A stretch of DNA of 31,121 nt from positions 1 to 31,121 of the IMG/VR virus record IMGVR_UViG_3300030117_000527; one strand, written 5' to 3'. Positions within the stretch are counted from its first letter, which is position 1; every line of letters starts with the position of its first letter. Below are positions 8,201 to 26,840 of this stretch, one piece after another. The position numbers were made by a program, and so were the translations under genes. This DNA is from a virus. The notes beneath the pieces are model-generated. The model searched no databases. It was not told the origin of the DNA and saw only the letters and a list, made by a program, of their open reading frames with translations.

Positions 8201-8663
8201 CTAAATCTCCAGTCTTTAAATTAAAACTATTTTCATCAATAATAGTATTAAGATTTACAATAGTGCCATCTTGAAGTTTTCTCTGTTGTATAGGTAATCC
8301 TAGTATTTCTAAACCTTCAGGTGTTAAAGCTAATTGACCTTTGGTATTTCTAATGTAACCAGATGATCCAACCTCTCCATCAATTACATCTTCTTGTTCT
8401 AAAGGTGATTTAGTTTTAGATAGTCTAGTGAGTATGTCATTAAGAACTTTGTCCTCTTCAGCCATTGTTTCGGCTCTACCAAGTTTTCTTCTTAATTCTT
8501 TATTATTAACCCCAGTTTCATAATCAAAAAATAACTCATCAAAAAATGGTGATACGGTACCTTTGGCTATTTCTGATTTAATTATTTTTCTTGCATCATC
8601 TTCAGTTGCAGCATCAACTATTTGGGAAACACCTGGAGCTATATTGACTCTGAACCTTGGCAT
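5244..8663 (-). CDS. Large putative internal/ejected virion protein
   Basis: A 1139-residue protein, last gene of the late operon. A small N-terminal domain (about 1-35) is followed by an Ala/Gly-rich hydrophobic region (about 158-205), a long charged, mostly helical middle rich in Lys, Arg, Asp and Leu, and a strongly hydrophobic Gly/Ala segment at about 979-1011 that could insert into a membrane. The C-terminal 100 residues are acidic and Pro-rich. Size, helical content and position after three other large virion-like proteins resemble the internal core/ejection proteins of podoviruses (T7 gp15/gp16, P22 gp16/gp20), but no transglycosylase motif is visible. The start shares one base with the preceding stop (TAATG). 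Structural role is inference. Confidence 0.6.
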   Translation of the reverse strand: MPRFRVNIAPGVSQIVDAATEDDARKIIKSEIAKGTVSPFFDELFFDYETGVNNKELRRKLGRAETMAEEDKVLNDILTRLSKTKSPLEQEDVIDGEVGSSGYIRNTKGQLALTPEGLEILGLPIQQRKLQDGTIVNLNTIIDENSFNLKTGDLADFSGIAGPVIGTIVSLLPQARIVRGLAALLGGRQPMARMLAAGTGSAAGKAGEEYLDAQEGFQLQDSEEIKKLIGYEFGIGSIGQGLFGEVPAKLYNLLLGKRAPIDNQRLMNVMSKNLSYKDVVKLDNDLGRAATPKEIARAVRDGRVKKFDWKYSRGAIPAQASLEKMLPGRYQQISEQVLGNNRDIANKNALFAELDYILNGIKSERAALDSYISQSSKGRLDESVNQALQKLRNQEKDVTESLKKMLKDIGSDVIEIGNYGQVPSRREFGETLKDVLFRSRSAVMRESGERYGTVDQKFLDIADPRNKEEIVRTVGGREAVTGPAQEARIINKTINSVVNKYVLQAQRLVKDYKNSSNTWNLQAPGTDIKTSVVQQLDAVLENMRKRSQAVLDNATDESGELIAGINLKQIRNDVSRLKDFHTEVVGRSPEGRLLSDVVKVFDNYKPGQQNADSMLTELADTGKAQIKADLKKAGIDVNPILSNRITMAIDDLRAANKLHYERMRPFDKVKMDSLISNAQKGSISADDVYKRAILSGAPGEFSDIVNALRGYDEYLARTGQATFKNGKQVLKEVELKSQIKRRLFNDAFRVATKDDLTSVNFTDFARQMKKFDMENQGKFDELFRDPVTKRSSGKDVLRAIDQLNMIGPRIKPQDLKSLVNDFTVDFKGKGLDAYASGRKFINELENLAKASDERLKFEANRAISRLPEVGIEETVNSIFRPGSAANIIKLKNTVDDEVFNSIQQASMQKLLAKSIDFNGKGKVTDVFKHQNLKTALDSYGDETLEAMFGRELAKDLRTFQKEIDILTLGEVGRGAGGAGGLVAAGIAATVIFTPLATLPIVAGLAVARSLFGNRAFVRLMTKTDPGSITQAFKIFNNTLRQFGLRYVDGQIQPFAASVTDVIETGVQDAATEAGVTGGDVEGITDEGLNIFQQLREQVTAPLKTSELQLPDVQPMQSPTDPLSPERIDFAEQVAGRPIV

Positions 8664-12777: not shown

Positions 12778-13853
12778 TATACTTGTCCTATTTTATTAAA
12801 TTGCTCAAAAGTTTTCATAAGCTTGTCCATGTTTTCAGCACCCTTTTGTCTATTTGGTGAACCATTTGGTATAAGTTCTATGCCTGTTTCTGTTTTTGTT
12901 ACTTTAAATCCACCTAAACCATTGTTAGCTGCTGATGTCATTACAAACTCACCATCACTCAACATAGCTGGTATATCATCACTTGTGCCTGTTCCTGGCC
13001 CCACTGAAGGACCACCCATACGCATATCTAATTCTTGTAATCCACCATCTTTAGCTCCTCTTATGCCCATATCAAAACCTTGAAATGTTTGTTGAGGCAT
13101 CAAGTCTGGTCGTATTGATGTTCTTATATCTTGTAAACCACCTTGTTTCTTTTCATAATCAGACTTAACTGCTTTACCATAAGCACCAGCTAATAGGAGT
13201 AGTGGTAAATTCATTCCACCACCTTGTGAAGTAGATCCAGTAGCACCTGGTATTAATCCAGGAAAAGCTTTTGAAAGACTTGACTGTATGCCTGATCCTA
13301 CTGGTCCCAAGGTCGATCCAGTAGCACTGCTGAAAAAACCACCAAAAGGTTGTGTTAATCCAGTTGTGATTGTAGAACCATAGTTTCCTGGTCCTGCTGT
13401 CATACCTCCAGCAATTTGTGAAATACCAGGAATACCAGCACCCGCTACAGTTTGTGCAAAATTTGCTAATTTAGGAAATTTAGCTGCTGTAAGACCAATT
13501 TTGGATCCTAGACCACCTAATACACCGCCTAAAGCTTGACCTACTCCAGGTATAAACATAGCAACTGGTGCTACTTTTTTAACTACCTTTTTAAGTTTTT
13601 TACCTAGTTTTTTTAAGAACCCAAACTCTGCCATACCCGTTATTGGATTTATGGACATACCTTCACCAACCCTATATTCATTAGGATTAAGTCCAACCGC
13701 CATCATTTCTTGTTCTATAATTTTTTGTGTTTGTGGAGTAATAACTGGTGGGACTACCATTTCTCCTGGTGCTACGTGAGCAAGCATACTGTCCTCTCCT
13801 CTTCCTAAACCTGCTATGCCTTTACCTGAGTTGTCGATTCTATTCATGCTCAA
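12777..13853 (-). CDS. Putative virion protein with cationic amphipathic helix
   Basis: A 358-residue protein with three recognisable parts. Residues about 16-40 carry GRGEDSMLAHVAPGEMVVP; about 79-120 hold a Lys-rich amphipathic helix (LKKLGKKLKKVVKKV) running into a hydrophobic Gly-rich stretch (APVAMFIPGVGQALGGVLGG); and about 290-312 hold TSDDIPAMLSDGEFVMTSAA. The first and third are related to each other (ML...GEMV / ML...GEFV) and are common in marine phage late proteins. The cationic-then-hydrophobic centre looks membrane-active, which would suit a pore-forming ejection protein. It starts one base after the oxygenase stop. No catalytic residues are evident. Confidence 0.6.
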   Translation of the reverse strand: MSMNRIDNSGKGIAGLGRGEDSMLAHVAPGEMVVPPVITPQTQKIIEQEMMAVGLNPNEYRVGEGMSINPITGMAEFGFLKKLGKKLKKVVKKVAPVAMFIPGVGQALGGVLGGLGSKIGLTAAKFPKLANFAQTVAGAGIPGISQIAGGMTAGPGNYGSTITTGLTQPFGGFFSSATGSTLGPVGSGIQSSLSKAFPGLIPGATGSTSQGGGMNLPLLLLAGAYGKAVKSDYEKKQGGLQDIRTSIRPDLMPQQTFQGFDMGIRGAKDGGLQELDMRMGGPSVGPGTGTSDDIPAMLSDGEFVMTSAANNGLGGFKVTKTETGIELIPNGSPNRQKGAENMDKLMKTFEQFNKIGQV

Positions 13854-13854
13854 A

Positions 13855-14562
13855 TTATTCCTGTAAACATTTTAACCAAAATACTAATAAGTATCTATCT
13901 CCTGATTCTACTGCAAGTCCCCTGTGCATATGAGTAAAACTCGGAAAAATAAGAGCGTGGCCTGTAGGTAATGGCTCAACTGTACCACGTTTTAAAAACT
14001 CAGTTCCGCCACCTTTGTACTTTCCAGTGTTCAAAGGAACTACCATACTAATATCAGCACTTGCATCGTGATGCCAAGCACCTTGTTTTTTATCCTTTAA
14101 ATTATAGTTTGCTATTTGTATTCCGCCACTATCTACGTGTCGATTCCAAATATTCAAAAATATAGGATTTCCTATAGTATATATCGTTTGCATCAAAGAT
14201 TGAAAGATTTGTGGACAATTATCTTGAAAAGTTATTTCTGGTATCTGCCGTAAATTATCTTCTTCTGGGTTAGGATTAAACCCAAAGTATGCCTCTAAAT
14301 TCTTCATTTCATCTAAAAGTATGTTGCAAAACTTTTCTGAAAAAAAAGGAACTGTGTAAACATCTTTTAAAGGTTCTTGAATAATTTTATCTAACTTTGT
14401 GTCTTTTCTAGGCTGCAAACCACTATCTTCATAAAAGTTTACAATAGGTTCTATAGAGTCTTTTACTGCATTAAAAGTATCTTTTTGTATGTACCAATCA
14501 GCAGGATGTTCTAGAAGAATGTTTTTTGTTTTATAGTTTAGGTCTTCTGCTGTATTGATCAT
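13855..14562 (-). CDS. 2-oxoglutarate/Fe(II)-dependent dioxygenase
   Basis: A 235-residue protein whose C-terminal half is a double-stranded beta-helix oxygenase. The iron facial triad is visible as H164-x-D166 in GAWHHDAS and His213 in FPSFTHMHRG; Arg223 in GDRYLLVFWL is placed to bind the 2-oxoglutarate carboxylate. GGGTEF at 184-189 fits the family turn before the second half. Fold and size match phage prolyl-hydroxylase-like 2OG enzymes, which hydroxylate protein residues or nucleobases. Lying among structural genes (4-base overlap with the upstream gene, 1-base gap downstream), it may modify a virion protein or compete for host 2OG; the substrate is unknown. All catalytic residues are present, so it should be active. 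Confidence 0.85.
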   Translation of the reverse strand: MINTAEDLNYKTKNILLEHPADWYIQKDTFNAVKDSIEPIVNFYEDSGLQPRKDTKLDKIIQEPLKDVYTVPFFSEKFCNILLDEMKNLEAYFGFNPNPEEDNLRQIPEITFQDNCPQIFQSLMQTIYTIGNPIFLNIWNRHVDSGGIQIANYNLKDKKQGAWHHDASADISMVVPLNTGKYKGGGTEFLKRGTVEPLPTGHALIFPSFTHMHRGLAVESGDRYLLVFWLKCLQE

Positions 14563-14885
14563 AGTTCTATAGTTATATCGCCATTAGTTTTTACAGAAAC
14601 TGCACCTACTGAAGTTGTCATTTCAAAACCTTTAGGTGAGGTTCTATCGCCTATATCAACCCATTTATTGCCTGTATATACTTGCAGAACACCAACTGTA
14701 GTGTTCCAAATAATACTACCATCGTTAAATTTAAGTGTATTTTTTTCTGCATCACTTATTTGTCTAACGTTATCAAGATCTATAGCACCAAGATTTATTT
14801 CTAATATTCTTACTAATCTATTAAAAATGTCTGAAGTAACTGTATCACTGGCAATAGGTAGTTGTGTTTGTAGTAACTTACTCAT
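14559..14885 (-). CDS. Small virion-associated protein (IIWNTTVGVLQVYTG type)
   Basis: A 108-residue protein with an N-terminal helical part and a C-terminal beta-rich part containing GSIIWNTTVGVLQVYTGNKW, a stretch that recurs in marine phage genomes, and a closing VKTNGDITIEL. Both ends overlap neighbours by 4 bases (ATGA type): the gp10-like gene upstream and the dioxygenase downstream. The Trp/Gly-rich motif looks like the short surface patches in fibre or neck proteins, so a decoration or tail accessory role is plausible. Function is not known. Confidence 0.55.
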   Translation of the reverse strand: MSKLLQTQLPIASDTVTSDIFNRLVRILEINLGAIDLDNVRQISDAEKNTLKFNDGSIIWNTTVGVLQVYTGNKWVDIGDRTSPKGFEMTTSVGAVSVKTNGDITIEL

Positions 14886-16750
14886 CTTTTACCATCTGGC
14901 TTTATATCTATACGTGTAGCTCCTAACCTCCATCCTATTGATAAATTACCATCGTTAGTAGCGTCATCGTCAGACTCAAACCTTAGTGCTATTTGCCTTG
15001 ACCTACTGCGTACATATACTTGTTGAGTAGAAGATGTTATTGCACTTGTGGAGTTGGTTGCGAGAGAATCGCCTGGAAAATTTCTAGTCTTTAAAACAAC
15101 ATTTACATTGCCGTTATTATCGTCTTGTATAAATTTATAATCTGGTATTATTCTTTTTACAAAACTAAATTGATTGCCATCTCCTATATCAAGATCACTG
15201 CTTTCTATAAATACATTGGTCATTGGAGATCCATCTGCGTTAAAACCTGCTTCTTGTTTATATAAATAACCATTGCTTACAGCTCTTGGATAATTGACAA
15301 TACCAGAATCAAGCCAAGCAGTTCTAGACAATTGTCCATAAAACCACAACCCTTCTACATAGTTATATATAACATACCTATCAACTTCTGTAGCATCGCT
15401 TGAACAATAAAACCAACCTACTTCACTTTTGTCTTTAATAGTAAAAGCATTTATTTTAAATGATTGAGTTAGATTAATGTCTCCAAATACGTAATTATGA
15501 ACTGAACAAGGTAAAGTTTGTACGCTACCATTGTATGAATAAAAGTTGTTATAGCTCATCCAGTAAACACCACTTGGTGTAGTAACGGCAGCCTTTGGAC
15601 CTATCAACCCTGTACCTTCGTTAATAAGATTTATACCAAAAGTAAATGGTGGGCCTATGAACTGCATACTATAAAGTGCTGTATCAGTCCAAACTAATAT
15701 TTCTTGTCTTGCTTTTACACCACCAATAATAGATGAGCCACTTGACAACCTTAGTGAACCTGCAGTGTTCGTTGACAAGGGCTCAAAATCTAAAGCATTT
15801 TCTTGATCACTAAATGCTATGAGCATTGGATCTACAGTTCCAGTCCTTGAAGATCCAGATATAGGATCTGCACCTAAAACTATTAGATGTCTATCTTTTT
15901 CAGAGGTAATTACTTGTAAACCTTTAGTAGGCACTAAATTTGCACCTGATATACCAGATAATTCTACAGCTCTTGTTCCTACTCCATTATTTTCTGTCCA
16001 TTGATATATACCTGCTGCTCTTTGATTTATTATTAAATTTTCACCGAAGTTGTCATGAGTCCATATTCTTAATTGATTTGTGTTTCCTAATGATGATGTG
16101 CTGCCAAAAGTCCCAGATCCCCATCCATCTATACCCCAACCAGTACCAGGAACGTAAACATCTAAACCCACACTAATTTGGTAAGTGCCAACAACAGAAG
16201 ACCCACCATTACCTGAATCAGAAGAATTAGCTGTAACTGTTGCTCCAGATGTATCTTTCGCTTCAATTGTATAGCTATTAGCATTTACTATAGTTGCTAT
16301 TTGATACTCTTGATTTAGTACATTTGCTGTTATATTGCCGCCTAATGTTGCAGCTCCACTAAAAGTAACAAAATCGTTTTTTACTGCTCCGTGTGATGTA
16401 TCGGCTACAGTTATAGTGGCATCACCATTGCTTGCAGAAAATGTTACGTCCCCTGCACTTGTGGTTGATCTTATTGGTGTAATATCATTAAAAACATTAC
16501 CAGATTCTATATAGTATTTAAAAGTTGTACCAAGACCTAGATATTTAGTACCTCCAAGTGAAATCCAAGCGTGTAATGCTCTAGCGGTTCCTAAATAAGT
16601 ATTAGATGTTTCTTTTTCCCAACCCCCAAACTTTTCTGGTCTTCCTTTACGAAATCTTACAAGGTTGCAATCAAACCAACCTCCCTCATTGTCGTAGTCA
16701 GTTCCTTCTCTATTTATACCAGGTTTAAATACAAGTTTCTGCAACGGCAT
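14882..16750 (-). CDS. P22 gp10-like packaged-DNA stabilisation / tail hub protein
   Basis: A 622-residue beta-rich protein. The N-terminus (LVFKPGINREGTDYDNEGGW, then CNLVRFRKGRPEKFGGWE) and the following ALHAWISLGGTKYLGLGTT are the typical opening of the phage stabilisation family (Phage_stabilise, P22 gp10). In P22 this beta-propeller protein closes the tail after packaging and prevents genome leakage. Repeated hydrophobic Gly-Thr blades continue through the chain, and the C-terminus ends SIGWRLGATRIDIKPDG. Length is somewhat greater than the P22 protein, with an inserted Thr/Ser-rich repeat region at about 95-190. It supports a podovirus-like tail. It sits 2 bases after the lysozyme stop. 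Confidence 0.78.
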   Translation of the reverse strand: MPLQKLVFKPGINREGTDYDNEGGWFDCNLVRFRKGRPEKFGGWEKETSNTYLGTARALHAWISLGGTKYLGLGTTFKYYIESGNVFNDITPIRSTTSAGDVTFSASNGDATITVADTSHGAVKNDFVTFSGAATLGGNITANVLNQEYQIATIVNANSYTIEAKDTSGATVTANSSDSGNGGSSVVGTYQISVGLDVYVPGTGWGIDGWGSGTFGSTSSLGNTNQLRIWTHDNFGENLIINQRAAGIYQWTENNGVGTRAVELSGISGANLVPTKGLQVITSEKDRHLIVLGADPISGSSRTGTVDPMLIAFSDQENALDFEPLSTNTAGSLRLSSGSSIIGGVKARQEILVWTDTALYSMQFIGPPFTFGINLINEGTGLIGPKAAVTTPSGVYWMSYNNFYSYNGSVQTLPCSVHNYVFGDINLTQSFKINAFTIKDKSEVGWFYCSSDATEVDRYVIYNYVEGLWFYGQLSRTAWLDSGIVNYPRAVSNGYLYKQEAGFNADGSPMTNVFIESSDLDIGDGNQFSFVKRIIPDYKFIQDDNNGNVNVVLKTRNFPGDSLATNSTSAITSSTQQVYVRSRSRQIALRFESDDDATNDGNLSIGWRLGATRIDIKPDGKR

Positions 16751-16752
16751 TG

Positions 16753-17196
16753 TTATACCTCATGCCATTCTTTGCCTTCAAATAGCAAAGCTTCTGCTTC
16801 TCTTCTTCTTACCAAGCCTTGTTTCACTTGCCCACCAGCTTTATTCCATCTTTTAATTTGATTGGGTACATCATTCCAATCTTTATTGTTAAGTCTTTGC
16901 AATAATGTGCTTGAAGATAAATTATTTGGCCCAAGGTTATAAACCCAAGATACTAAAGCATCGAACTCATTTTGTTTTAGATCAGAAGTAACCATATCAT
17001 TAACATATCCTTCGTATTCAGACATTTCTTCTACAAGTAAACTATCTGCTTCTTCTTGTGTAATTGTATCGCCTTCTTTTACACCTTTAGTTGAACCCCA
17101 TCCATATGTCCAAACTCCTGCTGCACATTTGTAAGCTTCTAGTTCACAACCTTCAAATTTTTTAATAAGAGATAAACCTTCTTGTGATATGTTCAT
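16753..17196 (-). CDS. GH24 lysozyme (endolysin) with E-C-T catalytic motif
   Basis: A 147-residue T4-type lysozyme that cleaves peptidoglycan glycan strands at lysis. The catalytic motif E-x8-C-x5-T is exact: Glu15 (KKFEG), Cys24 (YKCAAG) and Thr30 (VWTYGWGST). Many relatives have Asp in place of Cys24; P1 Lyz has Cys. A second Cys17 sits two residues after Glu15, as in P1 Lyz. There is no N-terminal signal or SAR segment, so it should wait in the cytoplasm for the holin. I chose the ATG at 17196 because AAAGGAG lies 8 bases upstream, inside the last codons of the holin gene. The frame extends 19 residues further, but that part overlaps the holin and looks non-native. Confidence 0.9.
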   Translation of the reverse strand: MNISQEGLSLIKKFEGCELEAYKCAAGVWTYGWGSTKGVKEGDTITQEEADSLLVEEMSEYEGYVNDMVTSDLKQNEFDALVSWVYNLGPNNLSSSTLLQRLNNKDWNDVPNQIKRWNKAGGQVKQGLVRRREAEALLFEGKEWHEV

Positions 17197-17197
17197 G

Positions 17198-17677
17198 TTA
17201 CTCTCCTTTGTCGCTGGTGTGAGATGCTCCGAAATAAAACGAAATAATTGCACTTGCTAACCCTCCAAGATAACCAAGCACTAAATTTATAAGTGCTTCA
17301 GAGTTTTGTTCAGGTGGTTGTAGTGTTACTAAAAATATATACCCTAAAAATCCACCTATGGTGAATAAACCTATAATACGAGCAGTCCAATCTTTGCTAA
17401 ATATACCTCTAGCGTTTTGTTTGTCAGCTACTTCTAGCTTAAATACATCTACATCAAGTTCTTTCATTTGTACTTCAAACTCTTGTTCAGCTTTTTTAAG
17501 TTCCATCATTTGTTCTGGAGTAGCGTTTTGTATCGCTTGTTGTACGGATTTTTGATCGTTAGATACACCTAACACTTCTGCTATTTTACCCATAGCCATT
17601 CCGCCTAATGGCCCACTAATTGCTGTGCCTAGTGTTGGTGCAACTGCACCTACTATATTTTTTAATAATCCTTTCAT
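17198..17677 (-). CDS. Holin of the GTA-type 3TM family
   Basis: A 159-residue protein matching the holin family first described for gene-transfer agent release. Residues about 8-37 are a Gly/Ala-rich hydrophobic segment, 45-90 a charged helical stretch, and two clear transmembrane helices follow at about 98-118 (IIGLFTIGGFLGYIFLVTL) and 127-151 (INLVLGYLGGLASAIISFYF), with the conserved KDWTAR just before the first. It would permeabilise the inner membrane to release the lysozyme, whose ribosome binding site is embedded in its 3' end. Its start overlaps the preceding small gene by 4 bases. Confidence 0.82.
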   Translation of the reverse strand: MKGLLKNIVGAVAPTLGTAISGPLGGMAMGKIAEVLGVSNDQKSVQQAIQNATPEQMMELKKAEQEFEVQMKELDVDVFKLEVADKQNARGIFSKDWTARIIGLFTIGGFLGYIFLVTLQPPEQNSEALINLVLGYLGGLASAIISFYFGASHTSDKGE

Positions 17678-17889
17678 ATTAATATGCTCGTTAAAACAGC
17701 TATACCAATTGCACCAAGAAACCCAAACACACCAAAGGTTGCGGCTTTCATAGTTGAATTAATATAGGTGATTTCTTGTTTTATATCAGAAAACTCATTG
17801 AATGCAGTTTTCCAACGCTCGTGTGATATTGTTTCTAACTTTGTAAGCCTTTCTGCAACATCGTTTACTGTCATTTTTTTATTAACCAT
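17674..17889 (-). CDS. XhlA-like small membrane protein, lysis accessory
   Basis: A 71-residue protein: residues about 8-45 form a charged amphipathic or coiled-coil helix (DVAERLTKLETISHERW), followed by one C-terminal transmembrane helix (about 48-70). This layout resembles XhlA-type lysis accessory proteins and other small holin partners. It overlaps the adenylate cyclase stop by 8 bases upstream and the holin start by 4 bases downstream, placing it at the head of the lysis cassette. No good ribosome site precedes either of the two possible Met starts, so it probably depends on coupled translation from the cyclase. Family assignment is tentative. Confidence 0.55.
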   Translation of the reverse strand: MVNKKMTVNDVAERLTKLETISHERWKTAFNEFSDIKQEITYINSTMKAATFGVFGFLGAIGIAVLTSILI

Positions 17890-19642
17890 ATTGTATAGTG
17901 TATATTTTAATTGGTTTTTCTTTACCTTTTACAAAAATACTATCAAGCTCTTTTAACATAATTTGATCGCTAAAGCTACTTGCACTGATAGTATCATAAC
18001 CTATAACAATATCTTCTCCAACATCCTTAGTTGAACTCTCTAGTCTTGCTGCAAGGTTTACTGCATCTCCAATAGCCGTATAATCAAATCTAGTTTCACT
18101 GCCCATATTCCCAATAACTGCATAACCGCTATTCACACCTATGCCTATTTCTACATCTAAATTAGCCATTTTTATTTTGTCTTGAATTTCCATAGCACAC
18201 AAAACTGCAGAATTTTCATGTCCTGGTGTATCCATGGGAGCGTTAAAAATAGCCATCATAGCATCACCTATATACTTATCTACCATACCATCATATCTTT
18301 TAACGGTGTCAGCTTGTATTGTAAGAGCTTTGTTCATAATTTCAGTAACTTCTTCTGGCTCTAGTCGTTCAGATAAAGCAGTAAATCCCCTTACATCTGT
18401 GAATAAAAATGTGCAGTATCTACGTTCACCACCTAATACTAAAGAACTAGGATCATCTTGTAATTTTTTAACTTGGCGTGGATCAAGGTAATGTTCAAAC
18501 TGTTTTTTAATCTGTTGACGTAATTTATATTGTTGTCTAAACCTTAAATAGAAAGCTATAGATCCTGAAATAAACTCTGATATAAGTGTCCAAGATACAT
18601 CTACTAACAAACCTTTGCTTATAAAGTAATATCCTAAACTACCAGTAGTAACCATTAACATGGTTGCAACAGTGATACCCCAAGTTATACCTAAATAATG
18701 AAGTGCAAACCAAACTAAACTAACAAATATAATAAACATCATTAGTTCAGCAGCCAATGACCAATCAGGAATGTATGGACTATCTTGTATTAATATCGAT
18801 TCAGCGAGTGCTGCTTGTATTTTATGTGGCTCTAGCAAGCCTACAGGTGTTGCTACTTGCGGCATTACTCCGTTTGCAGTTACACCTATAAATACAAACT
18901 TACCATTTACTTCCATTTCTTGTAAGTCGGTTTGTGGTGTATCTATCCAACTAATCCATTTACGGCCAAAGCTGTCTGTTTTAACTGGTGGTATTCCTCT
19001 TATTGATATTTCTGATATACCATTATCATTAGTTTTTATAATATAAGTTTTTACATTAAATAAAGCTTTATATATTTGTGTGCCAAAACTAGGTATCCAT
19101 TCATTTTCAGGGGTTTTTACTAAAAGAGGTATTCTTCTAACAAGTTGATCTACATCTGTGGGAGCAATCGCTAAACCTTGAAGTGTGTGATTGGATAAGA
19201 GAAGTAGGTTCTGCTTTACTCCCGTACTTATTATACCACCATTATCATCTCCAAGTACAACGGTTCCAGGAGATGCAGGGTAATTACCTTTCCCATCTTC
19301 AAACATAGCTATAACAGATGGTGCATACCTCAAAGATCTAGCGAAGTCTTCATCACCACCCATTCTGTCTGCTTGTGGAAAAGAGATAACCCAACCAACA
19401 CCTACTGCACCTTTACCTAATATTTGCAATTGTATTTCAGCTAATCTTTGTCTGGGTAAGGGCCAACCACCTTCACGCTCTACATCTTCTTCGGTTATAT
19501 TAAGTATTGTAAAGTTACCTGATTCTTCTGGTGTTTGTATAAAAGCATCAAAAGTTTTTAGTTTTAATATTTCTGTAGGCGTGCTTTGAAATAATAATGG
19601 TAAAGATAGCATTATAAGCACAGGTAATAATAGTCGTTTCAT
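17882..19642 (-). CDS. CHASE2-transmembrane class III adenylate cyclase
   Basis: A 586-residue receptor-type cyclase. A hydrophobic N-terminal segment (4-19) is followed by an extracytoplasmic CHASE2 sensor domain (about 28-290), three transmembrane helices (about 298-316, 320-340, 345-366) and a cytoplasmic class III cyclase domain (about 405-586). Catalytic residues are intact: metal-binding Asp416 (LFTDVRGFT) and Asp460 (DKYIGDAMM), adenine-selecting Lys456 and Thr522 (DYTAIGD), Asn529 and Arg533 (VNLAARLES). Lys/Thr points to ATP, hence cAMP. It follows the FecR gene with no gap and overlaps the lysis cassette by 8 bases. Stimulus and purpose in infection are unknown. Such a full receptor cyclase is very unusual for a phage. 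Confidence 0.93.
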   Translation of the reverse strand: MKRLLLPVLIMLSLPLLFQSTPTEILKLKTFDAFIQTPEESGNFTILNITEEDVEREGGWPLPRQRLAEIQLQILGKGAVGVGWVISFPQADRMGGDEDFARSLRYAPSVIAMFEDGKGNYPASPGTVVLGDDNGGIISTGVKQNLLLLSNHTLQGLAIAPTDVDQLVRRIPLLVKTPENEWIPSFGTQIYKALFNVKTYIIKTNDNGISEISIRGIPPVKTDSFGRKWISWIDTPQTDLQEMEVNGKFVFIGVTANGVMPQVATPVGLLEPHKIQAALAESILIQDSPYIPDWSLAAELMMFIIFVSLVWFALHYLGITWGITVATMLMVTTGSLGYYFISKGLLVDVSWTLISEFISGSIAFYLRFRQQYKLRQQIKKQFEHYLDPRQVKKLQDDPSSLVLGGERRYCTFLFTDVRGFTALSERLEPEEVTEIMNKALTIQADTVKRYDGMVDKYIGDAMMAIFNAPMDTPGHENSAVLCAMEIQDKIKMANLDVEIGIGVNSGYAVIGNMGSETRFDYTAIGDAVNLAARLESSTKDVGEDIVIGYDTISASSFSDQIMLKELDSIFVKGKEKPIKIYTIQYG

Positions 19643-20761
19643 TTAATCACTTTGAGTGATAGTAATAATGCTATCACTTCCCCCGTTAATTTTTATTGTA
19701 TTAGAAATACCATCTTGTATCAAAATAACTGTATATGCAGTACCGCCATCTAAATCTAACCTAACACTTTCACTTACCTCTCTACGCAAACTTACTACGT
19801 TTCCTGTAATTAAAGCTGTTATTTGTGTATCAGGATCTTTGCCAAGCATAGTTCCAGTTATTTGCGTGCTTGTAGCTTGTGCTAATACATCTTCTTCTTC
19901 AGCAATAGCTAAAGCATCTAAAACATTAAGCAGGTCTTCAAGGTAATTTACATCAAGATAATTTATATCTAATTCTGTAAACTCAAGACTGTCTTCTTTT
20001 AAATAGTCCTCTGCAAGATAATCTATATCAAGATCATTAAAATCTAACACGCTATCTGCTTTTGTAGTGGTGTTTTCTTCTTCTACTAGCACTTCTTCTT
20101 TAGGTGGTGTTACTATCAACATATTATCTATAACATCTAGTGTTAGATCTAAAATTACTGGTTTTGTTGGAGCTGACTCGAATACGCTTACTGTAGTCGC
20201 CTCGTATGGTTTATTAAGTAAAACAGTACCCATAGCAGTAACTACCTCTATTTCGCCACTAGAGAGCCCTAGAGCGTCTGGTAGCAATATTATAAGGCTA
20301 CGCCCTAGTTCATCAACTGTAGCAGTAAAATCAGTCCCACGTATTGCTATATTAGCTGTTGGTGTTTTAAGAGTTATGTTCTGTTTATCTATACGGTTAA
20401 GATTGCCTGTAATAAACCTAGCTGTACCAAGACCAAAGGTAAGAGCCATTTTTGCTTTACTTGGGTCTGGATCGTATATGTACTCGTCAATAAGTAGCTG
20501 ACTATGTTCAGTTAATTTAACTGTTGAGTCATCAAGAAATGTAATAGCCATGCGGCCATCTTTAGTTATAGCCTCATCATTACTTTGAATTGCAAACTTT
20601 AGATTTGCATCATAAGGTTTATCTCTTAAGATTTGGGCTGAACCATTTAGTTCAGAAATATCTCCTATATCAGCAGCTTGTGCTTGTACCTTGGTCGTTT
20701 TGAACGACACAAACAGTAGAAGCAGCAGTGCCAGAAATTGAAATGATCTTAAGCCAGTCAT
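19643..20761 (-). CDS. Secreted FecR-domain protein with acidic repeats
   Basis: A 372-residue exported protein. Residues 1-29 are a signal peptide (basic start, LALLLLLFVSF core, AQA before the cut). Residues about 35-195 contain a FecR-type domain, best seen at MALTFGLGTARFITG (105-119) and TPTANIAIRGTDFTATV (133-149). Residues about 236-290 are an acidic repeat built on LDINYL-like units (DIDYL, DINYL, DVNYL). The tail (about 350-370, SNTIKINGGSDSIITITQ) has curlin-like beta-strand spacing. In bacteria FecR domains often sit next to CHASE2 cyclases, as here with zero gap, suggesting it is the periplasmic partner of that sensor. The first 92 bases overlap the curlin-like gene in another frame. 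Confidence 0.85.
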   Translation of the reverse strand: MTGLRSFQFLALLLLLFVSFKTTKVQAQAADIGDISELNGSAQILRDKPYDANLKFAIQSNDEAITKDGRMAITFLDDSTVKLTEHSQLLIDEYIYDPDPSKAKMALTFGLGTARFITGNLNRIDKQNITLKTPTANIAIRGTDFTATVDELGRSLIILLPDALGLSSGEIEVVTAMGTVLLNKPYEATTVSVFESAPTKPVILDLTLDVIDNMLIVTPPKEEVLVEEENTTTKADSVLDFNDLDIDYLAEDYLKEDSLEFTELDINYLDVNYLEDLLNVLDALAIAEEEDVLAQATSTQITGTMLGKDPDTQITALITGNVVSLRREVSESVRLDLDGGTAYTVILIQDGISNTIKINGGSDSIITITQSD

Positions 20762-21404
20762 TATCTTGAGTGCTTAGTTGTTGGATATTAAAGGTTCTTG
20801 AGCCTCCTGTGTGGTCAAGATAGAAATATCCACCTGCACTAGCTGTTACTCCAGTCCCAGTATATGTAACTGTATTATCACTTCCATCTATATCCATAAA
20901 ATTGGTTGCTCCATCTATGTTTATATTTGAAGTAATAGTGTTGTTAGATCCTTGAATAATCCAATCTAAATCAAGTTGTGAAGCTAAAGCTGAAGTACCT
21001 TGATTTAAAGTAAAGGTGTTGCCGCTCCCTGTAACATCTACGTTTTGATTAGAACCATCTGAACTGTAAGTATCTGTAGGATCAACTTGTATGGTAAATG
21101 AATTAGTGCCGCCATCAAACTCATAAAAACCTGTAAAGTTATCAGCAAATATATCACCTAAAAATTTATTGGTTGCACCAATCATATTAATATCAAGTGT
21201 CATGCTGTTACCATCTAAATCAAAGGGAGTTAAATTGCCTGCAGAGCTATTTAACCCACCTATGATATTAGAAATACCTAGTTGTTCTAGGTCTATATTT
21301 GCTCCAGTACCAGATTGTTCTACATATATTTCATTATCAGCCGCGTATGTCGTCAACGCACTCATCATCACAATCAGGCTTATCAATTTTAATTTGTTCA
21401 TCAT
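20670..21404 (-). CDS. Secreted curlin-like beta-repeat protein
   Basis: A 244-residue protein with a signal peptide (KLKLISLIVMMSALTTYA, cut before ADNEIYV). The mature chain is acidic, rich in Gly, Ser, Asn, Thr and Asp, and has curlin-like repeats: EIYVEQSGTGANIDLEQLGISN at the mature N-terminus (written here as the pattern Q-x-G-x4-N-x5-Q-x-G-x2-N), then TGSGNTFTLNQG, IQGSNNTITSNI and IDGSDNTVTYTG. Two Cys lie in the last 13 residues. It directly follows csgG, so it is the likely cargo of that channel. It is the only gene of this block with a strong ribosome site (GAAGGAG), consistent with high output of a fibre subunit. True amyloid formation is unproven; a beta-helical adhesin is the alternative. 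Confidence 0.65.
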   Translation of the reverse strand: MMNKLKLISLIVMMSALTTYAADNEIYVEQSGTGANIDLEQLGISNIIGGLNSSAGNLTPFDLDGNSMTLDINMIGATNKFLGDIFADNFTGFYEFDGGTNSFTIQVDPTDTYSSDGSNQNVDVTGSGNTFTLNQGTSALASQLDLDWIIQGSNNTITSNINIDGATNFMDIDGSDNTVTYTGTGVTASAGGYFYLDHTGGSRTFNIQQLSTQDNDWLKIISISGTAASTVCVVQNDQGTSTSC

Positions 21405-22242
21405 TTAATTCTACTCCTTCGTTTTTGTTTTGTAAAACCCAAAATCCTTTTTCATATCCTGTTTCTACTATTTCTAATATACCACCCTCTATAGCTTTCA
21501 TTAAAGCTATGGTAGATGACTCGTTTCTTGCGTTACCCATTTCTACTTCTACTAGCTCGGTACCTGCCTCAATAAACCTAAATATATCCTCAGATTTTCC
21601 GTAGCTAAATATGGTTTTTTGGCTTAACACTTCTAGCAGGACTTCGCCTGTTGCAACAGAAACCATACGCAAACTTACAGTTATGTTGTCTTCTCGATAC
21701 ATCACACTTTTACCTATACCTAAATACCTAGCACCAGAACCCCCACTTTCTAAATTAGATTCATAAGAAATTACGGCACCTTCTATCAAAATACCAGCAA
21801 ATAAAAGTGGTCTAAGAGCTTTCTTTTTTTCATCTTCACTAGCAGTTTGTTCTCTAGCAGATCTTATAAGTTGTCGTTCTTTGGTTAAGTTATCTAAACC
21901 AACTCTTTCTACGACTCTAAAAAATTGACCATTACCTGCGTGTTTTAAAGCTCTTATTAATAATGCATTTGGCTGTTGGGTTATAGCTGTGCTAAACAGT
22001 GCAAACTCGCTGTTGCTTTTTCTTTGTCCTGTCTGATCTGTAAAGGCGGTTGGATATACAGCTACAACAGGACTTACCTGAGGTATAGGTACGTTTTTAA
22101 GTTCTTTAGATTGTAAATCTTGAATACTTACAACATTATGAGCTGAAAATCTATGTTCGTAAGTATCTTCTAACTGATCAAATGTAGAACAACTAGAAAG
22201 TAAAAGTACCAATAGGAATAACGATAGAAGTGATTGTACCAT
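21337..22242 (-). CDS. csgG: CsgG-family curli secretion channel lipoprotein
   Basis: A 301-residue, full-length CsgG homologue. Residues 1-17 form a lipoprotein signal ending LLSSC (lipidated Cys18, Ser at +2, compatible with outer-membrane sorting). Family blocks run in order: TDQTGQRK (68-75), LFSTAITQQPNALLIRALK (82-100), FFRVVERVGLDNLTKERQLIR (written as the 107-127 region), ILIEGAVISYESN (151-163), SGGSGARYLGIG (166-177), RMVSVATGEVL and SQKTIFSY...FRFIE, the last two forming beta-barrel hairpins in E. coli. In E. coli nine subunits form the outer-membrane channel for curlin. Constriction residues differ: Y51 and N55 of E. coli align with Ser78 and Leu82, while F56 is kept (Phe83). It overlaps both neighbours (50 and 68 bases). 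Confidence 0.93.
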   Translation of the reverse strand: MVQSLLSLFLLVLLLSSCSTFDQLEDTYEHRFSAHNVVSIQDLQSKELKNVPIPQVSPVVAVYPTAFTDQTGQRKSNSEFALFSTAITQQPNALLIRALKHAGNGQFFRVVERVGLDNLTKERQLIRSAREQTASEDEKKKALRPLLFAGILIEGAVISYESNLESGGSGARYLGIGKSVMYREDNITVSLRMVSVATGEVLLEVLSQKTIFSYGKSEDIFRFIEAGTELVEVEMGNARNESSTIALMKAIEGGILEIVETGYEKGFWVLQNKNEGVELNDEQIKIDKPDCDDECVDDIRG

Positions 22243-22693
22243 CTGACTCGGTTATTTTTAGGGTTAATGTTACACCATCACTTGTGTACTCGATAGTATT
22301 CCCCTCTAAAGTGATGACACCTTCGCTTTGCGGTGTTTCTCCGAATAAGTTATTAACTAACTGTCTTGATAGTTCTGCGTAAACTCTGGACTCAAGATTA
22401 CGCATAAACCTTGCAAGAGTAGAGTTTTCTTTTTCTCTTTTGATTTCATCTTGTAAGGCTTTAATTTCTTCTTTAAGTGTAAGTTTGCGGGTGTGTTCTT
22501 GGTTTTCTATGGTTAAGTAATGAGATGATGTTCCTACGCCATTAAAACTAGGCGACTTAAATTTATGTACTATTTGATCTGCTTTTATATTTATAGCTAT
22601 TATTCCTATAAACATAATTAAACCAAAAAACATTACACCAATTAGTATTCTAGTTTTTTCTGCTTCAGTTTCGTTAATCTTTTCTTTGGTCAT
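22193..22693 (-). CDS. csgF: CsgF-like curli assembly protein, membrane-anchored
   Basis: A 166-residue protein. Residues 1-15 are charged, 16-34 hydrophobic (ILIGVMFFGLIMFIGIIAI), then ADQIVHKFKSPSFNG (38-52) matches the CsgF segment FRNPxFGG that in E. coli plugs into the CsgG pore. A charged helix (about 71-95) is inserted, followed by LESRVYAELSRQLVNNLFG (100-118) and a beta region with EYTSDGVTLTLKITESDGT (135-153), both aligning in order with E. coli CsgF. The long n-region makes it ambiguous whether the hydrophobic part is a cleaved signal peptide or an anchor. I chose the ATG at 22693 (AAAGG nine bases upstream) over an in-frame TTG 18 bases earlier. It precedes csgG with a 50-base overlap. 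Confidence 0.8.
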   Translation of the reverse strand: MTKEKINETEAEKTRILIGVMFFGLIMFIGIIAINIKADQIVHKFKSPSFNGVGTSSHYLTIENQEHTRKLTLKEEIKALQDEIKREKENSTLARFMRNLESRVYAELSRQLVNNLFGETPQSEGVITLEGNTIEYTSDGVTLTLKITESDGTITSIVIPIGTFTF

Positions 22694-23024
22694 CTCTATT
22701 CGCCTTTGCAATTTTATTGCTATCTATAAGTTGTGGTACGCCAAGAATAGTTTTAACTAAAGTATCTTGTCTTATAATTTCGTTATCTAAACTTCGTACT
22801 CTATCTATTAATGCTACCAAAATACCATGTTGTGAATCAAGTTTTGTACCAAGTCGTTCTTCTATAGCAGCTATTTGTGCTTCTACTTTTTCATCAACAG
22901 TATCAAGTTTAGTCTCCATACCGTCAACAATACGCATAATTAGTTTGTAAATAAACCAACCAAGCCCTAATGCTGCTGCAATAGGGAATCCAACTTCTTG
23001 AATTAAAGTTACGGCTGATTCCAT
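22674..23024 (-). CDS. Small membrane protein with coiled coil (holin-like layout)
   Basis: A 116-residue protein: an N-terminal transmembrane helix (about 8-32, VGFPIAAALGLGWFIYKLIM) followed by a long coiled-coil-like region with heptad spacing (about 34-90, e.g. LDTVDEKVEAQIAAIEERL) and a polar end. This resembles BhlA/UviB-type holin-like proteins and other small phage membrane proteins, but the match is by layout only. Its start shares a base with the thermonuclease stop and its end overlaps the csgF start by 20 bases, so it is translated together with the secretion module and could be part of it or of lysis. Confidence 0.5.
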   Translation of the reverse strand: MESAVTLIQEVGFPIAAALGLGWFIYKLIMRIVDGMETKLDTVDEKVEAQIAAIEERLGTKLDSQHGILVALIDRVRSLDNEIIRQDTLVKTILGVPQLIDSNKIAKANRDDQRKD

Positions 23025-23404
23025 TAATAATCACCCCAAACTTTTTTCTTTTTGCCTCCATCGTATTCAACGGCATGACCTTCTTTAATAAGAACATCAC
23101 AAATATCTCTGCCGTCTTCTGTATAAGGTATGCCCAATATACGACCGTACTTACCTTTGCCCAACGATTTAATTTTTATATTGCCTACACACAATTCTTT
23201 TAGTCTTTCTTTTGCAGCAAGACCAAGTTTTTTTTCAGCAAGATCACGTGTTCTGCTTTCTGGTGTATCTATACCAGCAAGCCTAACACGTTGTTTGTGA
23301 AGTTTTACATCAAAACCAAGATCTAAAATACAATCAAAAGTATCGCCATCAACGATTCTATCAAGTGTAGCGTTATAAACAAACGCATCGGGTGATTTAG
23401 CCAT
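23024..23404 (-). CDS. Thermonuclease (SNase-like)
   Basis: A 126-residue staphylococcal-nuclease-like enzyme. Active-site residues are all visible: Asp19 and Asp21 in VDGDTF, Arg41 and Glu49 in RVRLAGIDTPES (with Asp46), and Arg88 in GKYGRILG. The OB-fold length is normal. It hydrolyses DNA or RNA with calcium. There is no signal peptide, so it would act in the cytoplasm or within the virion, perhaps degrading host nucleic acid. It starts at a TAATG overlap with the upstream 53-residue gene and stops on the start of the small coiled-coil membrane gene. Confidence 0.9.
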   Translation of the reverse strand: MAKSPDAFVYNATLDRIVDGDTFDCILDLGFDVKLHKQRVRLAGIDTPESRTRDLAEKKLGLAAKERLKELCVGNIKIKSLGKGKYGRILGIPYTEDGRDICDVLIKEGHAVEYDGGKKKKVWGDY

Positions 23405-23565
23405 TAGGATTCTTTAGATTTTTTAACTCTTTTTGTTGTCCAAGCTTCATCTACATCTGGTGTTGATTTGTCATCAGCAACATAATGACCTTTTTTATTC
23501 CTGGTTCTTACTTTTATTTTTTCAGTTCCAGTAACTTTGCTCCACATTTTTTCTAACCAACTCAT
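23404..23565 (-). CDS. Small basic protein (53 aa)
   Basis: A 53-residue Lys/Arg-rich ORF (MSWLEKMWSKVTG start, then KVRTRNKKGHYVADD and WTTKRVKKSK). It has a good ribosome site (AAAGGATAAAGG directly before the ATG), begins in an ATGA overlap with the upstream small gene, and ends in a TAATG overlap with the thermonuclease. The tight coupling on both sides and proper site make it a real gene. It may bind nucleic acid given its charge (net strongly positive). No family is recognised. Confidence 0.6.
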   Translation of the reverse strand: MSWLEKMWSKVTGTEKIKVRTRNKKGHYVADDKSTPDVDEAWTTKRVKKSKES

Positions 23566-23726
23566 CCTTTATCCTTTGCTTTAAGCACGTTTAATGCACA
23601 CCAATCTATTACTTTGTATATGTAACTAAACCAATGATCATCTTTTGGTGTTGGAGTTATTGCTGCTACAACAGAAGCTATAGATATAATTGCAGTAACC
23701 CATACTAATATATTAAGAATTGTCAT
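23562..23726 (-). CDS. Small membrane protein, TPTPKDD type (54 aa)
   Basis: A 54-residue ORF: transmembrane helix at about 3-23 (ILNILVWVTAIISIASVVAA), then TPTPKDDHWFSYIYKVIDWCALNVLKAKD. The pattern TPTPKDD...YK.ID..ALN...AK is one I know from many small phage membrane proteins of unknown role. It has a GGAGGA ribosome site before the ATG, lies within the end of the preceding gene by 14 bases, and ends in an ATGA overlap. A lysis-related function is possible, but nothing in the sequence proves it. Confidence 0.65.
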   Translation of the reverse strand: MTILNILVWVTAIISIASVVAAITPTPKDDHWFSYIYKVIDWCALNVLKAKDKG

Positions 23727-23961
23727 TTTTATCCTCCTCTGGATTATTTAAGACTTCATCTGCTTTTTGTTTAGCAGACTCTATAAATGCGTTTTGAAAC
23801 ACACTTAAACTGGCATTAACTTGGTCAAGTTCAAACTGTATGCGTTTTTGTTTATTAGTTAAATCTAGTATTTGACTATGAAAATATTGTTGTTCGTTAG
23901 TAAGTTCGCTTACTTTAATTTCTTTGTCATCAATCATTACTACTGGTTCTTGCGTAGCCAT
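23713..23961 (-). CDS. Small coiled-coil protein (DUF6447-like)
   Basis: An 82-residue acidic protein: an N-terminal short beta part (PVVMIDDKEIKVSELTNEQ) and a helical remainder with heptad-like spacing (QILDLTNKQKRIQFELDQVNA region), ending in a very acidic tail. The layout (short DGKE-like strand followed by coiled coil) resembles the DUF6447 proteins seen in marine phages. It lies one base after the 115-residue gene's stop and overlaps the next gene by 14 bases. The function is unknown; possibly a fibre accessory or chaperone given its place just after the tail fibre. Confidence 0.55.
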   Translation of the reverse strand: MATQEPVVMIDDKEIKVSELTNEQQYFHSQILDLTNKQKRIQFELDQVNASLSVFQNAFIESAKQKADEVLNNPEEDKNDNS

Positions 23962-23962
23962 A

Positions 23963-24310
23963 TTAAGAACTCAATGTTTTTTGTACAGAAGTTGGCGTAA
24001 TTTTTTTGGCTATATTTGCATCTAATGATGCTTTCATATTAGTTACTTCATCGCTACCTAATGCAGTTTCTACCCAACTTTGTACATCGTTATTAGTAAG
24101 ACTAGACCAATTTTTAAAACTAGATAAATCAGATGTATCTAATGCTTGTGCACCATAACAAGATGCTGTCCAATTATTACCATCACTGTCTTTATTAGTG
24201 TCGTCTGTAGCAACTAATCTCCAATGAACTGTGTGTACGACATTTGATTTGCCACTTTTTGTAGGGTATGTATCACAAGTTTTACAATCCCATGCGTAAG
24301 ATATTGCCAT
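23963..24310 (-). CDS. Conserved phage protein with HWRLVATD motif
   Basis: A 115-residue protein. VVHTVHWRLVATD at about 24-36 is a motif I know from small proteins next to fibre genes of marine phages (usually VV..VHWR). It has a CKTC pair near the N-terminus (9-12) and one further Cys near 51, then a Trp-rich middle (WSSLTNNDVQSWVE) of alpha-helical character. The gene follows the tail fibre by one base and has its own AAGGAG site inside the fibre 3' end. It is probably a fibre-associated or assembly protein; no enzymatic motif is seen. Confidence 0.6.
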   Translation of the reverse strand: MAISYAWDCKTCDTYPTKSGKSNVVHTVHWRLVATDDTNKDSDGNNWTASCYGAQALDTSDLSSFKNWSSLTNNDVQSWVETALGSDEVTNMKASLDANIAKKITPTSVQKTLSS

Positions 24311-24311
24311 A

Positions 24312-26840
24312 TTATTCTCCTTTTAAAATGTTTATCTCAGATTGTAAGGCATCAATCTGCTCTTGTTGTTCTTGTATAGCTTTTATAAGAGGTGTTACTA
24401 ATTTACTGTAATCCATTGAGTAATAACCTTCTTCATTAACATTTATTGCATATGGTATTAGTTCTTCAACTTCTTGTGCTATTAAACCATCTTGAATTTC
24501 GCCACCATCTTTCCATTCAAAGTTTACTGGATTTAATTTATTAACTATTTCTAAACCTTTTGCTTCACCTAAAATATTTTTAAGTCTTGCATCTGAAGAT
24601 GTACCATAAGTTACTGTAGAATTATTGTGGGAAATCTGACTAACAGTTGAGCCACCATTTTTAAATCTAATTACATCTGAAGTATTAGTTGTAGAACTTC
24701 TATTAAAGGTTATTACAGCAGCACCATCATCAAAATTTGGTTGTACGCTTAAAGCTCCAGCAGCCCCTACAGTTGTACCTCCCAAAGTTAAATTACCACC
24801 ACTTGAAATACGCATCCTTTCAGCTAATGTGTTATCTGCCACAGTTTCAAATACCAAGGCACTACTAACTGCATTATCAGCGTTCCATGCTTCTGCACCC
24901 TCAGTTCTAATTCTTCCTGCTGTTGCTATGACATTATTGTCAGACCTTTCAGATTGAAAATTTACAGCAGAACCATAACCACCAGCTTGTGTATTTATTA
25001 TATTTATACCGCTAACATGAGCTGATGCTGAATGGGTTACTAACAAAGAAGTAGAACCTGATGTTAAAATATTTCCATTTGTTCCATCTGAAAACAAAGA
25101 CATATCTGAACCAGCACCAAAAACTATTCTGTTATTGTCTGCCATTTTTTGCCAACTACCAAATATAGCTGTACCTGCATCTGACATATCAAAAGTAATA
25201 GCAGTAACAAAAGAAGAGCCATCAATACCTTGTATTACAAAATCGCCATCAGCTACGATAGATTGAAAAAGTGCGTTGTTGCCATCTTTTTTAACTGTTG
25301 CAAATTGTGTGCCACCATCCAAAAATCTAACTTCACCACCATCATCAGCATCTAATCTTATATTACCTACTACATCAAGTATTAAATCGTTGCCATCAGA
25401 AGCAATAGAACCAAATTTAGTATTATCTTGTCTAAATTCTACTACATCTCCATCATCACTTGTACGATTTAAAAGTTGTACAGTATGACCACTTGATGTT
25501 CCAGTAAATGAATAATTACTTGAACCAGTTCTTATTTCTGCACCGACTGAACTAACTCCAGAACTTGTTTTACCAACTAATACTATTCCTCCAGTTGTAA
25601 CACGGGCTCTTTCTGAACCAGCAGTAATTATTCCTAAATCATCGCTAGTTAAAGTTCCAACACTTGCTACGCCACCAGTATTACCTAAATAAAGTTGATC
25701 AGCACTTGAAGTTCCTGTATTAACTCTTAAACCATTATTTCCTGTAGTTAATAAATCTATAGCATAAGAGCCACCAGCAGTTCCAATCCCTACGGTGCCA
25801 TTTGCATTTATACGCAATCTTTCACTAGCTCCTGTTCCACCATCAGGAGTGGTATAAAAACCCATTCTCCCAGGTAAATCATCTGCACCTGGAGTTCCAT
25901 CTACTTCAACTTCAATCTTAGCTGCATTAGAAAGCATATCATTACCGTCTGATGCACAAAATATTATTTGTCCTAAGTTATCACCATCTTGTATTATTGT
26001 ATTAGAGCCTATTGTTGCATTTCTTGATTTTGTAAACGCTAAAGTAGGAGGAGAAGCATTTGCACTAAATCTGCCTATAGTTAAAGTAGTATCTCCACCA
26101 CCTGTTCCTAATACTTGTAACGCACCCGTTCCGCCAGTATTTGCTATAGAAGTACTACTTCCAATTAAAACAGTATTATCTCCACCATTAACAAAAAGCA
26201 TATTAGCTTCACCATTTGATTCAACTCTAAAATCTACATCAGCACTATCTTCGTTAAATACAGCACCTCCATCTTGGGTTAAAGCTCCGTCAATATCTAC
26301 TACATCTAGGTTAGCTGTGCCATCTACATCTATTGAACCAGCTAAATCTATATCACCATTTACAATCAAGTCGTCTGTAACTGTTAAGTCATCTTCAACT
26401 TTTAAATCTACTACATTTAAACTAGCAAAAGCATCTACTATTGCTGCACCTGAACCTGCACCGTCTGAATAAACTGCTTTTACATCACCTGCAGGTATAG
26501 TTATGTTAGCACCACTACCTTGTGAAATTATTATGTTTTGTGAACCTGACGTTCCGTTTTCTATAAACCAAAGCTTTGATACTGTATTTGGCCCAATAGT
26601 AATAGTACAAGCACTATCAAGAGTACCTGTATATTTTAAATAAATACTTCTGCCGGGGTCTGTTGAACCGTCAGCTATTGTGGTTGTATGTGTGTCTGCG
26701 TTTGTAGTAATAGCTTCAGTGCCAAAACTAAATGCTTCAGCTATTAATTCTAAATTAGTGTTAGTGCTTGTTCCCCAAGTTCCAGCCTCATCACCAGTTG
26801 CTATTTCTTTTAATCTTAAATCATTTACATAAGTTGCCAT
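24312..26840 (-). CDS. Tail fibre/spike with C-terminal S74 auto-chaperone
   Basis: An 842-residue host-recognition fibre. The N-terminal 160 residues (opening TYVNDLRLKEIATGDEAGTW) are typical of virion-attachment regions of marine phage fibres. A repeat-rich beta region (about 160-730) follows, with many DG, GGNTV and TIG turns and repeated LRINANGTVGIG/MRISSGGNLTLGG units usual before S74 domains. The C-terminal 94 residues are an intramolecular chaperone (Peptidase_S74): SDARLK places catalytic Ser749 and Lys754 five apart as in endosialidase chaperones, followed by NPVNFEWKDG, GLIAQEVEELIP and a terminal coiled coil. The chaperone trimerises the fibre and then cleaves itself off before Ser749. 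Confidence 0.9.
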   Translation of the reverse strand: MATYVNDLRLKEIATGDEAGTWGTSTNTNLELIAEAFSFGTEAITTNADTHTTTIADGSTDPGRSIYLKYTGTLDSACTITIGPNTVSKLWFIENGTSGSQNIIISQGSGANITIPAGDVKAVYSDGAGSGAAIVDAFASLNVVDLKVEDDLTVTDDLIVNGDIDLAGSIDVDGTANLDVVDIDGALTQDGGAVFNEDSADVDFRVESNGEANMLFVNGGDNTVLIGSSTSIANTGGTGALQVLGTGGGDTTLTIGRFSANASPPTLAFTKSRNATIGSNTIIQDGDNLGQIIFCASDGNDMLSNAAKIEVEVDGTPGADDLPGRMGFYTTPDGGTGASERLRINANGTVGIGTAGGSYAIDLLTTGNNGLRVNTGTSSADQLYLGNTGGVASVGTLTSDDLGIITAGSERARVTTGGIVLVGKTSSGVSSVGAEIRTGSSNYSFTGTSSGHTVQLLNRTSDDGDVVEFRQDNTKFGSIASDGNDLILDVVGNIRLDADDGGEVRFLDGGTQFATVKKDGNNALFQSIVADGDFVIQGIDGSSFVTAITFDMSDAGTAIFGSWQKMADNNRIVFGAGSDMSLFSDGTNGNILTSGSTSLLVTHSASAHVSGINIINTQAGGYGSAVNFQSERSDNNVIATAGRIRTEGAEAWNADNAVSSALVFETVADNTLAERMRISSGGNLTLGGTTVGAAGALSVQPNFDDGAAVITFNRSSTTNTSDVIRFKNGGSTVSQISHNNSTVTYGTSSDARLKNILGEAKGLEIVNKLNPVNFEWKDGGEIQDGLIAQEVEELIPYAINVNEEGYYSMDYSKLVTPLIKAIQEQQEQIDALQSEINILKGE

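Follow-up and report, generated by a model that had tools for sequence, protein, structure and literature searches.

The stretch of DNA analysed here, below called the window, comprises positions 1 to 31,121 of the IMG/VR virus record IMGVR_UViG_3300030117_000527 (31,121 nucleotides). On its minus strand, at 17882-22693, lie genes for CsgF, CsgG, a curlin-repeat cargo, a FecR-domain protein and a class III adenylate cyclase with CHASE2 and transmembrane (TM) parts. The gene for CsgF, the pore-associated factor of the type VIII secretion system (T8SS) with an N-terminal signal/anchor, is located at 22193-22693 (PF10614, 3.5e-15). It is followed by the genes for the outer-membrane secretion pore lipoprotein CsgG (21337-22242; PF03783, 1.3e-45; lipobox LSSC), the CsgA/B-like cargo (20670-21404), the exported FecR-domain protein (19643-20761; PF04773, 2.3e-9) and the CHASE2-TM-cyclase (17882-19642; PF05226, 3.5e-28; PF00211, Guanylate_cyc, 1.1e-20). 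The open reading frames (ORFs) overlap by 50, 68 and 92 bases, and those of the FecR protein and the cyclase abut with zero gap. Five genes with these overlaps had been described in an initial annotation of the sequence, and the ORFs together with the Pfam matches confirm it. The block is a member of a marine-phage module which was already published in 2022; the observation is confirmed, its interpretation as one functional device is partly supported, and its novelty is limited by the prior publication.

The viral sets behind the csgG and cyclase counts below were gathered using three baits (csgG, the cyclase and a structural gene), the best 80 being kept per bait, and do not represent an unbiased census. 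Among 180 distinct viral csgG genes, those with enough downstream sequence are followed by fecR in 128 of 128 and by the cyclase in 82 of 84 cases. Counted by locus, viral csgG is accompanied by a curlin gene in 169/169 and by csgF in 190/192 cases, and csgG is found upstream in 121 of 122 cyclase loci. With the structural gene as the sole bait, the close relatives (>=85%) with room on the contig all carry the block genes (cyclase in 33/33, fecR in 16/16 distinct contigs), while none of the distant DSL-LC04-like relatives does (cyclase 0/38, fecR 0/18). Because the block is kept in all close relatives and absent from the distant ones, it looks gained, or lost, as a unit. The block is inherited as one unit, and separate inheritance of its genes, which the initial annotation had named as an outcome that would speak against it, is ruled out by the co-occurrence counts around viral csgG and cyclase. 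The same applies to a chimeric assembly with a break at the block edges, as an independent contig from another assembly (L109) matches window positions 12318-24388 with 97.7% identity and runs unbroken across both edges. All five genes are under purifying selection, with a median ratio of nonsynonymous to synonymous substitution rates (dN/dS) of 0.07-0.13.

The export part has the CsgG pore, CsgF and a curlin-repeat cargo in common with the enteric curli (csg) system, from which it differs by the addition of FecR and cyclase and in that CsgE was not found in the window. The window CsgG shares 48% identity over 77% with the CsgG of Pelagibacter phage HTVC008M. The FxxPxFxG stretch of CsgF is kept in 157 of 164 viral copies, which argues for a canonical CsgG-CsgF pore. 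A match of CsgF to the solved CsgF is circular, because the query alignment contained the Escherichia coli CsgF row, and was not used. While the window cargo itself stays below the cut-off for Curlin_rpt (0.047), within the cargo family this profile has matches in 17 of 22 members (best 4.2e-8). Its AlphaFold2 model (predicted local distance difference test, pLDDT, 80) is a beta-solenoid which matches beta-solenoid chains, and its profile weakly matches the solved curlins 8c50 and 8enq. Both the cargo and the FecR protein have N-terminal signal peptides, as read from the sequence. With the CsgG and CsgF domains of type VIII secretion (curli) present and the curlin-repeat subunit recognized via its family, export of curlin by the block is very probable. 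A CsgG match in the Salmonella phage record S.Kent 1-2-1 comes from a 1.5-kb unannotated record.

In the cyclase the class III residues D416, D460, K456, N529 and R533 are all present in the window copy. We take D416 and D460 to be the metal aspartates, K456 the substrate lysine, and N529 and R533 the transition-state residues. The intact motifs noted in the initial annotation are found well beyond the window: both metal aspartates are kept across 172 distinct viral cyclases, as are the transition-state arginine and, apart from one X, the substrate lysine. At 529, 157 of them have N and the other 15 have S; at 522, either S, T or D occurs. The 15 cyclases with S in place of the transition-state asparagine and the 15 with D at 522 (L003, 15544-17595, and similar ones) may differ in activity; both changes occur in the cyclase of Methylophilales phage Melnitz. 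Among solved structures, CyaB and other bacterial class III cyclases are the closest relatives of this enzyme.

The signal peptide of the FecR protein leads directly into the FecR domain, which is followed by a disordered acidic linker and a C-terminal beta domain with a curlin-type end strand. The model of the N-domain matches the PupR signalling domain (Z 15.6, 137 residues, root-mean-square deviation 2.5), and this match together with PF04773 assigns to it the FecR domain fold of cell-surface signalling. The layout of anti-sigma FecR proteins of the iron-citrate type, with an N-terminal cytoplasmic anti-sigma part and a TM helix before the FecR domain, was not found in this protein, and a signal peptide running straight into the FecR domain gives no support to iron regulation. 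A further match of the N-domain model, to an anchoring domain of a large bacterial adhesin (5ix9, Z 7.0), is too weak to build on. Within the last residues, the motif [IVLT]x[IVL]xQ is present in 185/185 complete viral FecR proteins and in 2/2 copies from Caulobacteraceae curli operons (see below), while among 5469 unrelated ORFs it occurs in 36. Outside curli operons, only three of the other bacterial FecR proteins carry it, and these are unrelated; a further match, L273, is a phage contig. The same ending is found in 75 of 199 curlin cargoes. This conserved curlin-type end of FecR hints at how fibre and cyclase could be physically connected.

The module was described by Wittmers et al. 2022 (PMC9599517), who found it together with fecR, adenylate cyclase and a gene called 'histidine kinase' in myophages and in nine genomes of the HTVC023P type. 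They make a case for its having moved from one phage family to another, and the roles they consider are aggregation, defence against superinfection and import. The order in HTVC023P-type podophages and pelagimyophages, a short upstream gene before adjacent csgF, csgG and curlin genes, then fecR and, in many cases, the adenylate cyclase, is also that of the window. The HTVC023P-type phages with the module are of similar size (57-61 kb), and the window differs in having a single curlin gene. The pore was also reported from pelagimyophages (Zaragoza-Solas 2020, PMC7029224) and from Melnitz (Buchholz 2022, PMC9004378), and the gene set as well as most outcomes listed in the initial annotation are already contained in these three papers. 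HTVC008M and Melnitz, which have T4-like genomes, carry csgF, csgG, curlin, FecR and CHASE2-cyclase in the same order, but there fecR and the cyclase are separated by an additional gene, which in Melnitz is of the curlin-repeat type. Four points were not found in PMC9599517: the curlin-type tail of FecR, the occurrence of FecR and cyclase in a bacterial curli operon (that of Caulobacteraceae), the wide pairing of FecR with CHASE2 (CHASE2 is not mentioned in its main text), and the near-lack of cyclic AMP (cAMP)-binding domains and of chromosomal class III cyclases in SAR11. A literature search of limited coverage found no later experimental work on pelagiphage curli.

The short gene of the window (22674-23024, minus strand) encodes a 116-residue coiled-coil protein with a single TM segment, is the first gene of the block and shares 20 bases with csgF. 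Related genes lie ahead of csgF in HTVC008M and Melnitz as well, and stand near csgG in 176 of 192 viral loci; the block thus has at least six genes. It also separates csgF from the thermonuclease (23024-23404, minus strand; PF00565, 2.3e-13), which the initial annotation had given as the neighbour on this side, whereas the proposed neighbourhood to lysis genes on the other side holds. Judged by position, it is possibly the gene named 'histidine kinase' by Wittmers et al.; as to a histidine kinase identity, Pfam shows no kinase domain in it and its length is far too short.

Two contigs of Caulobacteraceae metagenome-assembled genomes (MAGs; L168, L169) harbour a complete csgF-csgG-curlin-curlin-fecR-CHASE2 cyclase operon. 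The gene set is that of the phage block and the FecR protein has the same curlin-type end strand, but there are two curlin genes, the upstream coiled-coil gene was not found, and on L169 the flanks are ordinary bacterial genes (methylmalonyl-CoA mutase, acyl-CoA dehydrogenase, TetR). This operon contradicts the published statement that bacterial T8SS operons contain no FecR and cyclase, and is relevant to the origin that has been proposed for the module. Near 25 other alphaproteobacterial csg loci, a few of them on contigs ending close to the genes, neither FecR nor cyclase was found; their presence within a bacterial csg operon is rare. In a CsgG tree calculated by a quick method, the Caulobacteraceae operon branches next to the clade of the podophage lineage; its branch is long and the support weak (82). 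The G+C content of the L169 operon is about 51% versus about 57% in its flanks, which suggests horizontal gain. A phage-like contig binned in a Neomarinimicrobiota MAG (PBPT01000002.1, 60,834 bases; L166 and L167) has the module split over its two ends and therefore probably represents a misbinned circular phage genome.

FecR genes beside CHASE2-cyclase genes are found in several bacterial groups (L197, L220 and others). On a SAR11 chromosome (L181, 6581-10558) a gene for CHASE2 with a SpoIIE phosphatase (CHASE2-SpoIIE) is followed one gene later by that of a short FecR protein, and in other SAR11 genomes (L257-L260) FecR adjoins CHASE2 proteins. In Burkholderia, the BiofilmReg operon has a FecR gene beside a CHASE2 kinase (PMC5192318). 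Like the block, this operon, which regulates biofilm, pairs an exported FecR-domain protein with a CHASE2 sensor. It has no curli genes, however, the output part of its CHASE2 protein is a histidine kinase, and its FecR protein contains LysM; the biofilm-negative insertion lies in the response-regulator gene (PMC5192318). The link of FecR to CHASE2 drawn in the initial annotation is thus backed by gene pairing in many bacteria, with CHASE2 proteins of differing outputs, and a contact between the two proteins is, going by this pairing, fairly probable.

For these parts of recognized identity, in a conserved order, with intact catalytic residues in the cyclase and under purifying selection, we favour a device for curli export to which an envelope-sensing cyclase is joined, an explanation whose chance of being right as a whole we judge to be about even. 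During infection, Sec would export the components. CsgG and CsgF would form the outer-membrane pore, through which the beta-solenoid curlin cargo would leave and make surface fibres. The FecR protein would remain periplasmic or tethered to the fibre, its curlin-type C-terminal strand engaging the cargo, the fibre base or the pore. Its FecR domain would partner the periplasmic CHASE2 domain of the cyclase, so that the state of export or of the fibre gates cAMP synthesis and the cyclase serves as an on-board regulator. The benefit would most likely be fibre-dependent: either the infected cell aggregates with its neighbours, or other phages are blocked. Fibre formation, cAMP production and the sensing step are inferred. 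That FecR senses curlin or its export, a hypothesis drawn from the FecR tail, is possible but doubtful, and an action of cAMP via a CRP-type host protein is unlikely. A more specific version would make FecR a fibre-tethered sensor, whose tail docks on exported curlin or plugs the ungated CsgG pore while the FecR domain relays to CHASE2; curli would then report its own export via cAMP, in hosts otherwise without known cAMP readers. This version is tentative and in our view rather unlikely. If the favoured explanation is true, phages equip a streamlined, non-adhesive ocean bacterium with surface fibres and a sensor for them, and views of how cells aggregate, of superinfection and of open-ocean carbon flow would have to change. 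The conserved curlin-type FecR end and the bacterial operon with the same gene set are two checkable additions and the parts worth following.

Several points weigh against this export device with its sensing cyclase. The 185 FecR tails are homologous and count as one conserved feature, not as independent ones. In a profile comparison the ends of FecR tail and cargo align in register, but not significantly (probability 2%, E 0.024), and comparison of the model gave no clear fold match for the C-terminal FecR domain. With Melnitz no clumping was seen (Buchholz 2022, PMC9004378). A domain binding cyclic nucleotide monophosphates (cNMP) was found in 9 of 147 SAR11-family genomes, whose completeness is not given, so that absence is approximate, and in none of 15 phage records including the window; the lone positive record of that scan is a bacterial MAG. 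Module-bearing contigs related to the window do occur in SAR11-family assemblies, but may be binning errors. If the host is SAR11, the few cNMP-binding domains there and their lack in phages leave cAMP without a known reader, which turns the role of the cyclase into a testable question. Superinfection exclusion or aggregation could also be brought about by a cAMP-dependent host programme (the host CRP regulon) and not by fibres, for which the intact cyclase speaks, as does the control of csgD by CRP-cAMP in E. coli (reference 21 of PMC9599517). We give this hardly any credence, in view of the same scarcity of cNMP-binding domains and of class III cyclases, which score above the cut-off in only 2 of the 147 SAR11-family genomes, both times on phage-like contigs carrying the module. 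The absence of a known cAMP reader in SAR11 would likewise fit FecR and cyclase being passengers from a bacterial source operon that do not act with the curli part in the phage, and the operon on a chromosome-like contig of Caulobacteraceae means that the set could have arrived as a package. However, the catalytic residues are invariant over very diverse phages at low dN/dS, phage genomes are under size pressure and every complete FecR copy keeps its curlin-type end, which makes passengers improbable.

The function of the export part itself has been read differently. In PMC7029224 and PMC9599517 an uptake pore was proposed, in which CsgG, possibly with CsgF, would, without a CsgE gate, admit small nutrients or cofactors to the periplasm of the nutrient-starved host, with curlin and FecR merely stabilising or regulating it. 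CsgE is part of the enteric operon and was reported to be non-essential for the curli phenotype (PMC7029224). A CsgE match was found in 0/15 records (the window fragment, 10 other viral records and 4 Caulobacterales genomes), the E. coli control being positive. Since the four bacterial genomes, two of them with ordinary csg loci, also have no match, the absence is not phage-specific; moreover, the curlin cargo is never missing from the csgG loci counted above and its gene is as constrained as csgG, so we regard the uptake pore as unlikely. As to lysis timing, proposed for Melnitz in PMC9004378 and listed as an outcome in the initial annotation, the moment of lysis would be set by the pore (pinholin-like) or by the cAMP signal (regulatory). 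In the phage lineage of the window the block indeed adjoins the lysis genes, which lie outside the module on the minus strand and begin with a 71-residue TM ORF (17674-17889), followed by a phrog_1544 membrane protein in a holin-like position (17198-17677; phrog_1544, 1.3e-25) and a phage lysozyme (16753-17253; PF00959, 2.2e-48). The idea is weakened by HTVC008M and Melnitz, where the block is located between replication-side and baseplate genes and not beside lysis genes. In addition, CsgG is here a lipoprotein-type outer-membrane pore and not an inner-membrane holin, and this phage already encodes a lysozyme and has holin-position genes of its own; we consider lysis timing very unlikely.

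Beyond the lysis genes, a virion structural/stabilization protein (14882-16750, minus strand; phrog_3287, 5e-70) can serve as lineage marker. It shares 32-41% identity with its counterparts in HTVC023P, HTVC027P, 023Pt_psg01 and DSL-LC04, and 32-34% with those of the first three alone. In the regions of these four genomes that were read, the block was not found. Two long contigs with the module encode PolA; the window, a fragment, does not. No Rfam RNAs, riboswitches included, reach the gathering score in the window, and promoter-like matches are no commoner than by chance. Three large late-strand ORFs (1139, 655 and 715 amino acids) at 5244-12777 have no PHROG match at the threshold used, and a 2OG-Fe(II) oxygenase (phrog_61) is encoded at 13855-14562, flanked by structural genes.

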